Positions 44,452-45,697 of a stretch of 45,701 nucleotides of DNA are shown in pieces; the stretch's first letter is position 1; each line of letters begins with the position of its first letter. The stretch spans positions 1 to 45,701 of the forward strand of contig JAIEQK010000133.1 of assembly GCA_019747795.1 (NCBI GenBank), given 5' to 3'. Below the pieces are notes generated by a model. The model was not told the origin of the DNA. It did no database searches and was given only the letters and a program-made list of their open reading frames with translations. A program made the position numbers and the translations under genes. The stretch comes from Gammaproteobacteria bacterium (GTDB taxonomy: Bacteria; Pseudomonadota; Gammaproteobacteria; Ga0077536).

Positions 44452-45183
44452 CTAGAGGCGGCGGCGCAGCGCCGGGATCAGCATCGGCACGCGCGCGCGA
44501 TACTCGCGGTAGCGGTCTTCGAAGTGCGCGACCAGATCGCGCTCTTCGAGCAGCGTGCCGATGACGATGTAGCCAGTGGTGGCGAGCGCGAACAAGAGAT
44601 GCGTAACGGTCATTACCGGCGTCGCCCAGAAGGCCAGCAGGAAGCCGAAGTAGATCGGGTGGCGCACGTGCCGATAGAAGCTCGGCGTGCGAAAGCCCTT
44701 CTGCGGCAGGGGCTTTCCGCGAAAGTGGCACCACACCTGCAGCAGGCCCGAGAGTTCGAAGTGATCGATGAGGAAGGTGCTCACCAGCACCACGCCCCAC
44801 CCCGTCGCGCAGAGCGCCCACAGCAGCCAGGCCAGGCCGCTGCCGCTCACGTCCCACAGCACCCCACCCAGCGGACGCCACTGCCAGAAGATCAGCAAAA
44901 GCGCCAGGTTGGTGGCCAGGACGTAGGTGCTGCGCTCAATGGCTGGCGGCACGATGCGCGTCCACCACGCCTTGAACCCGCGTCGCGCCATCACGCTGTG
45001 CTGCACGGCGAACACGCCCAGCACCGCCAGGTTGATGGCGAGCGCCGCGAGGGTGAACTCGCCCGGCGGGAGATCCATGGACTTCGGCACCAGGAAATTG
45101 CCGACGAAGCCGATGGCGTAGAGGAAGGTCGCGAGGAACAGGGCGTAGCTCGCCACGCCGTAGAGCAGGAAGATCGTCGCCAT
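44452..45183 (-). CDS. mddA: Methanethiol S-methyltransferase (MddA-like)
   Basis: A 243-residue integral membrane methyltransferase of the isoprenylcysteine methyltransferase type. It starts MATIFLLYGVASYALFLATFLYAIGFVGNFLVP, followed by VFAVQHSVMARRGFKAWWTRIVPPAIERSTYVL and VSTFLIDHFELSGLLQVW. The SAM-binding C-terminus reads FRTPSFYRHVRHPIYFGFLLAFWATPVMTVTHLLFALATTGYIVIGTLLEERDLVAHF. These parts follow the pattern of MddA, which makes dimethyl sulfide from methanethiol with SAM. The start is ATG 45183; open frame to 45363 adds unrelated codons. The presence of other family members (NnrU and ICMT-like) means that biochemical function is inferred from family, not shown. It stands next to the selenoprotein gene on the opposite strand. 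Confidence 0.84.
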   Translation of the reverse strand: MATIFLLYGVASYALFLATFLYAIGFVGNFLVPKSMDLPPGEFTLAALAINLAVLGVFAVQHSVMARRGFKAWWTRIVPPAIERSTYVLATNLALLLIFWQWRPLGGVLWDVSGSGLAWLLWALCATGWGVVLVSTFLIDHFELSGLLQVWCHFRGKPLPQKGFRTPSFYRHVRHPIYFGFLLAFWATPVMTVTHLLFALATTGYIVIGTLLEERDLVAHFEDRYREYRARVPMLIPALRRRL

Positions 45184-45355
45184 GGTCGCTTTCCCGGCAG
45201 TGCAAGAGGACTCCATGTTAGCCCCTCGTCCTGGATGTACGTCTGTGGCAATTGGCACAGAGGCTTGGCGCCCTGCCCACCGCCATCTTGTGCCCGCGAC
45301 GCGCATCGCCCAACATCCGTTGCACGCTTTCCGTTCAACAACATGAGGGCCTGCC

Positions 45356-45697
45356 ATGAGCAAGCAAATCGGCTGGTACTACTTCCGCAAGGGGTGAACC
45401 AGCTGTGACAGAGCGTCCAAGTTCATGGACGCACGCGGGATTACTCCCAAGGAATCCGTACCGGCTTCGAGAAAGCTCGGCGCGGAGGATGCGCGCAGCC
45501 TGGCCGCCGCGGCGACCACCGTCATCGTGGCCAAGGGCAAGCAGAGCCAGACCTTCAAACCGGCCGGCAAGCCGACGGATGAAGTGATCCAGGCGATGCT
45601 CGGCCCCACCGGCAACCTGCGCGCGCCGACCATCGTCACCGGCAAGACGGTGCTGGTCGGGTTCAGTGAAGAGGTGTACCAGGCGGCGCTTGGTTGA
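45356..45697 (+). CDS. Selenoprotein of the ArsC-like (UxxC) family, Sec at codon 14
   Basis: From ATG 45356, with GAGGG 6 bases upstream, the frame reads MSKQIGWYYFRKG, then TGA at 45395-45397, then TSCDRASKFMDARGITPKE and on to a real stop at 45695-45697. Reading TGA as selenocysteine gives a 113-residue thioredoxin-fold protein with U14-T-S-C17, a UxxC redox motif. The C-terminus LGPTGNLRAPTIVTGKTVLVGF contains the APT cis-Pro region of ArsC/Spx-like proteins, and the whole follows the pattern of the ArsC-family (seleno)proteins known in other proteobacteria. A SECIS-like hairpin follows the TGA at the right distance. A frame that starts at the internal ATG 45425 lacks the active site. The likely function is thiol/disulfide or arsenate-type reduction. 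The gene ends 4 bases before the window edge. Confidence 0.85.
45413..45432 (+). promoter_or_regulatory. Bacterial SECIS element candidate
   Basis: GCGTCCA (45413-45419) pairs with TGGACGC (45426-45432), a perfect 7-bp stem around a 6-base loop AGTTCA. The loop has G in its second position followed by U, as SelB-binding loops require, and starts 22 bases after the TGA; the accepted range is about 16 to 37. The hairpin is inside the coding sequence, in the place bacterial SECIS elements occupy. Confidence 0.75.

Follow-up and report, generated by a model that had tools for sequence, protein, structure and literature searches.

A UxxC selenoprotein gene of the ArsC/Spx-like family and its UGA-proximal hairpin in an uncultured gammaproteobacterial order

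An interrupted reading frame and its family

Close to the end of the window, by which we mean the whole stretch of 45,701 nucleotides that was analysed, an otherwise open reading frame is broken by TGA, and the question is whether this codon is a stop, a defect or a site of selenocysteine insertion. The frame runs on the forward strand from ATG 45356 to a stop TGA at 45695–45697, four bases short of the contig end, and its sole break is the TGA at 45395–45397. Translated with TGA as U, 45356–45697 yields 113 residues, with the interrupting codon as residue 14 in the motif R-K-G-U-T-S-C and hence a U14-T-S-C17 pair. The first-pass annotation had described just this arrangement, a single in-frame TGA at codon 14 ahead of T-S-C and a proper stop, and its coordinates and counts are all correct; the 90-codon open reading frame that it gave as the product to be expected from a standard gene caller (45425–45697, forward strand, translation table 11) is likewise there. 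The read-through protein matches the NCBIfam model NF041106, "ArsC family (seleno)protein", at 105.7 bits (cut-off 85) over residues 5–108, and the family had been named rightly. We hold with high confidence that this is a genuine bacterial selenoprotein gene of that known ArsC-like family, in whose product U14 and C17 would engage in thiol–disulfide exchange, and that UGA at codon 14 is almost certainly read as selenocysteine. The earlier description of a "hidden selenoprotein" thus stands as to the selenoprotein, whereas "hidden" applies only where the gene caller lacks the NF041106 model.

Conservation of the UGA codon among homologues

Among 36 genomes of the window's own order, 14 carry the gene, with 15 copies in all; every copy has a single TGA, which occupies the identical aligned codon in all 15; the protein of the window shares 42–74% identity with the 14 same-order homologues over the whole length, on both sides of the TGA. 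A single-sequence query of genome contigs gave no match; with the same-order alignment as profile, 272 relatives were found among GTDB representatives, and the best 80 of these without exception show TGA at the site (80/80); they come from independent assemblies whose titles name Gammaproteobacteria, Deltaproteobacteria/Myxococcota, Acidobacteria, Planctomycetota, Gemmatimonadetes and others. A scan of 379 genomes of Myxococcota, the phylum of G435 according to its record title, produced 78 matches over the cut-off, 77 of them with one TGA, and the lone exception, in G815, encodes Cys at the site (WYYHRRSCETC). Low-scoring matches from the wider phylum (21–33 bits, no stops) were considered as Cys forms and rejected as such, and are read instead as probable ordinary Spx/ArsC relatives. 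The Sec column and C17 are invariant in the alignment. Where the first-pass annotation had looked to position 14 of the homologues for U or C, it is U in all of those just described save for the one Cys, and no unrelated residue occurs among them. Values of pN/pS (0.27 upstream of the TGA, 0.22–0.53 downstream) point to purifying selection on both sides.

A pseudogene or a sequencing error, with TGA standing in for TGC or TGT in an ordinary Cys protein, would likewise leave a frame that is open but for one UGA, and the gene does lie close to where a contig of a draft genome ends. This explanation is refuted by the homologues and is left with a negligible probability: the same TGA recurs in all same-order homologues and in the 80 best relatives from independent assemblies, a genome of the same genus (L031/L086) included, purifying selection acts on either side of it, and the hairpin described below is conserved. 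That the UGA is instead a real stop, the gene being the 90-codon frame whose ATG at 45425 is indeed present, we consider extremely improbable. This ATG corresponds to residue 24 and is conserved in only 11 of 81 homologues (CTG in 38, TTG in 31), the residues WYYFRKG upstream of the UGA are conserved under purifying selection, and a protein starting at M24 would be missing both the active-site motif and the first strand of the fold; the 90-codon frame is thus unlikely to be a gene in its own right.

Two observations on related loci may be added here. One genome of the window's order (G029) carries the gene twice, on separate contigs (L025 and L035), and both copies have TGA. Large-genome Myxococcota G693, G780 and G622 encode sister UxxC proteins (L177, L178 and L179; IRFYGRA-U-TGC...LGTSGTLRAPT) that have TGA at the site, reach 61–63 bits, below the NF041106 cut-off, and reside in hosts with selA; they may form a separate, unmodelled selenoprotein subfamily.

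The hairpin behind the UGA and the selenocysteine machinery

Downstream of the UGA, at 45413–45432 on the forward strand, lies a hairpin of the bacterial SECIS type, with arms GCGUCCA (45413–45419) and UGGACGC (45426–45432) pairing over 7 bp around the 6-nt loop AGUUCA (45420–45425), in which G at loop position 2 is followed by U. The first-pass annotation had reported a perfect 7-bp stem with this loop and the apical loop 22 bases past the UGA, which is exact; the stem itself begins after 15 bases. Its folding energy is −12.2 kcal/mol (z −3.4), a value at least matched by 2 of 200 shuffles. Constraints quoted for bSECIS elements comprise a loop of 3–9 nt, a stem of 4–16 bp, a G at loop position 1 or 2, a UGA–loop spacing of 16–37 nt and an energy of at most −7.5 kcal/mol (PMC13188914), and the hairpin lies within every one of them. 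Rfam gave no match at gathering level in the region around the gene, and a longer fold (45392–45445) is only mildly better than shuffles, the signal residing in the short hairpin.

Because all seven pairs also form in 829 of 5000 (17%) synonymous shuffles of the window gene alone, this gene by itself leaves room for a chance hairpin, and it is the homologues that decide the matter. Across 81 distinct genes the stem has on average 6.68 of 7 pairs, versus 5.01 ± 0.12 after within-gene shuffling of synonymous codons, the best mean in 300 such shuffles being 5.40; stems with all seven pairs occur in 78% of the genes as observed versus 11% in the synonymous shuffles. The loop G comes from a Lys codon, for which all 70 genes with Lys at that place use AAG, although Lys codons elsewhere in the same genes divide into 703 AAG and 254 AAA (254/957 AAA). 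Among 40 diverse sequences four stem pairs have changes on both sides, with a number of double-change cells and a covariation score that none of 500 shuffles attains and that slid versions also never reach; part of this excess reflects relatedness, which the sliding control retains. Two outliers, L129 and L160, have other sequences, yet hairpins near the same place; L134 and, in part, L029 fit the 7-bp stem poorly in this register. Together, the synonymous shuffles, the covariation and the conservation of G in the loop show that selection at the RNA level maintains the hairpin. In the mechanism that we propose, SelB carrying Sec-tRNA-Sec would bind the hairpin at 45413–45432 behind the UGA, and selenocysteine would be inserted by SelB at residue 14, an event inferred from conservation in an organism whose machinery genes have been found.

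The first-pass annotation had predicted that the organism possesses selA, selB, selC and selD, and all four were recovered from the genome. Matches to selA (593 bits), selB (419 bits) and selD (266 bits, the gene being cut by a contig end) are all above curated thresholds, as is a tRNA-Sec with anticodon UCA, which scores 62 bits with Infernal and is called tRNA-SeC by ARAGORN. On contig 291 of the source genome, selA, selB, a further ORF and selC follow one another in this order within 5 kb (G000 contig 291:16138–21012, L184); our guess from its sequence is that the ORF between selB and selC is beta-lactamase-like. Of the 36 genomes of the order, 31 have selA, as do 33 of the 35 other host genomes of the selenoprotein gene that were sampled. 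No selA was detected in three hosts of the TGA gene (G029, G440 and G465), of which G465 has selB and the other two have no selB match over the cut-off; the absence of selA from these draft genomes is probably due to incompleteness. A search of the source genome for a seleno-formate dehydrogenase gave no match over the cut-off and no internal TGA, from which it follows that the machinery would be kept for other selenoproteins.

Reading of the UGA as another amino acid such as Trp, by suppression or through a reassigned code, would leave the frame open just as well. We give it a very small chance, for TGA terminates many long reading frames of the window, this gene included, the genome has tRNA-Sec(UCA), SelA and SelB, the only member above the cut-off without TGA has Cys instead, and the hairpin has SECIS geometry.

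Fold, inferred chemistry and relation to known families

The predicted fold of the selenoprotein is a single thioredoxin-like domain of the Spx/ArsC-like kind (AlphaFold model from 36 homologues, pLDDT 92.7, pTM 0.84). Its best solved neighbours in a structure search are the ArsC-family protein 3gkx (Z 9.1) and Spx 3ihq (Z 8.9), Z scores of 8–9 being moderate, and a sequence-profile search places the same Spx/ArsC group on top, aligning U14-T-S-C17 with C-T-S-C of Spx. In the model, U14 and C17 lie at the N-terminus of helix 1 (residues 15–26). The product would thus be a thioredoxin-fold protein with U14 and C17 in the place of the CTSC redox pair of Spx, and a U14–C17 selenenylsulfide could mediate thiol–disulfide exchange, reducing a disulfide or a peroxide-type substrate. 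The protein is a putative thiol–disulfide (selenenylsulfide) oxidoreductase.

Since its nearest relatives in both sequence and fold are ArsC and Spx, the selenoprotein might be a true arsenate reductase or an Spx-like transcription regulator rather than a general thiol oxidoreductase. We think this unlikely, though less so than the other readings of the gene. Pfam ArsC scores 22.3 bits, below its gathering score of 24, and the Spx/MgsR model TIGR01617 scores 23.0 bits, below its cut-off of 75.05. The conserved P91 is directly preceded by A90, a position that is Ala in 36 of 36 aligned members and Arg in Spx. R773 ArsC has catalytic Arg94 at this place, and one residue of its catalytic Arg triad stands just before the cis-Pro. 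The invariant A90 argues weakly against oxyanion chemistry of the ArsC type, its presumed equivalence to the ArsC Arg being drawn from the alignment to Spx.

Nor do arsenic-resistance genes recur in the flanks. A comparison of the ORFs lying up to 3 kb from 80 loci revealed no conserved neighbours and gave mainly the gene itself read in antisense; scattered neighbour clusters reach at most 8 of the 80 loci, and SelA, SelB and SelD were not found in these flanks. The neighbourhood, having no conserved members, therefore does not indicate a substrate. In the window, the divergent neighbour at 44452–45363 (reverse strand) encodes a methanethiol S-methyltransferase of the MddA type (338 bits to NF045656, cut-off 270), which is not common to other loci; its TTG start overlaps the selenoprotein gene and is probably too early, because the alignment to NF045656 starts only at residue 63.

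Among members over the cut-off, the single one with Cys (L176, G815 contig 28:296464–296766) lies about 115 bp from selA (295038–296348, on the opposite strand) and close to selB (293041–294984). On this basis the family could be a selenium-dependent Spx-like redox switch or a selenium-handling protein, acting as a partner of the Sec machinery itself, a speculative idea to which we assign a low probability, below that of an arsenate reductase or Spx-like regulator.

Compared with NF041106 (ArsC_rel_Se_1), the gene agrees in whole length, UxxC motif, Sec codon and SECIS hairpin, and nothing of substance differs. Spx of Bacillus subtilis (1z3e, 3gfk) and YffB (1rw1) likewise have a thioredoxin-like fold, and VGYNED of Spx corresponds to the C-terminal VGFxEE of the present protein; they differ in having a first Cys where Sec is found here and in their length (about 131 residues versus 113), and the sequence similarity is weak (E about 5e-6 as profile). 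The selenoprotein "Arsenate reductase (ArsC) 1" (PMC2398784) belongs to the same ArsC superfamily and has Sec at the catalytic position, in a UxxS rather than the present UxxC motif, and the two are separate families in PMC2398784 and PMC13188914. A 2008 survey of ocean metagenomes counted 42 Sec and 238 Cys sequences in its UxxC group "Arsenate reductase 2" (PMC2398784), a 2022 review lists an "Arsenate reductase-like protein" with UxxC (PMC9312934), and a 2026 review gives an arsenate reductase-like protein, UxxC, under model number NF041106 (PMC13188914); the equation of the 2008 group with NF041106 is taken from the 2026 review, whose entry is cited to one earlier source. With this gene an already catalogued family gains a new member, which comes from an uncultured order of Gammaproteobacteria.

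The finding is correct and ordinary for the field, the family being known and modelled by NCBI. Its value lies in a corrected annotation, as a caller that has no selenoprotein models would return a 90-codon fragment devoid of the active site, or nothing; in strong RNA-level evidence of selection on the family's hairpin, which might be used as a model case of how synonymous sites can validate a bSECIS element; and in marking an uncultured gammaproteobacterial lineage as a user of selenoproteins.
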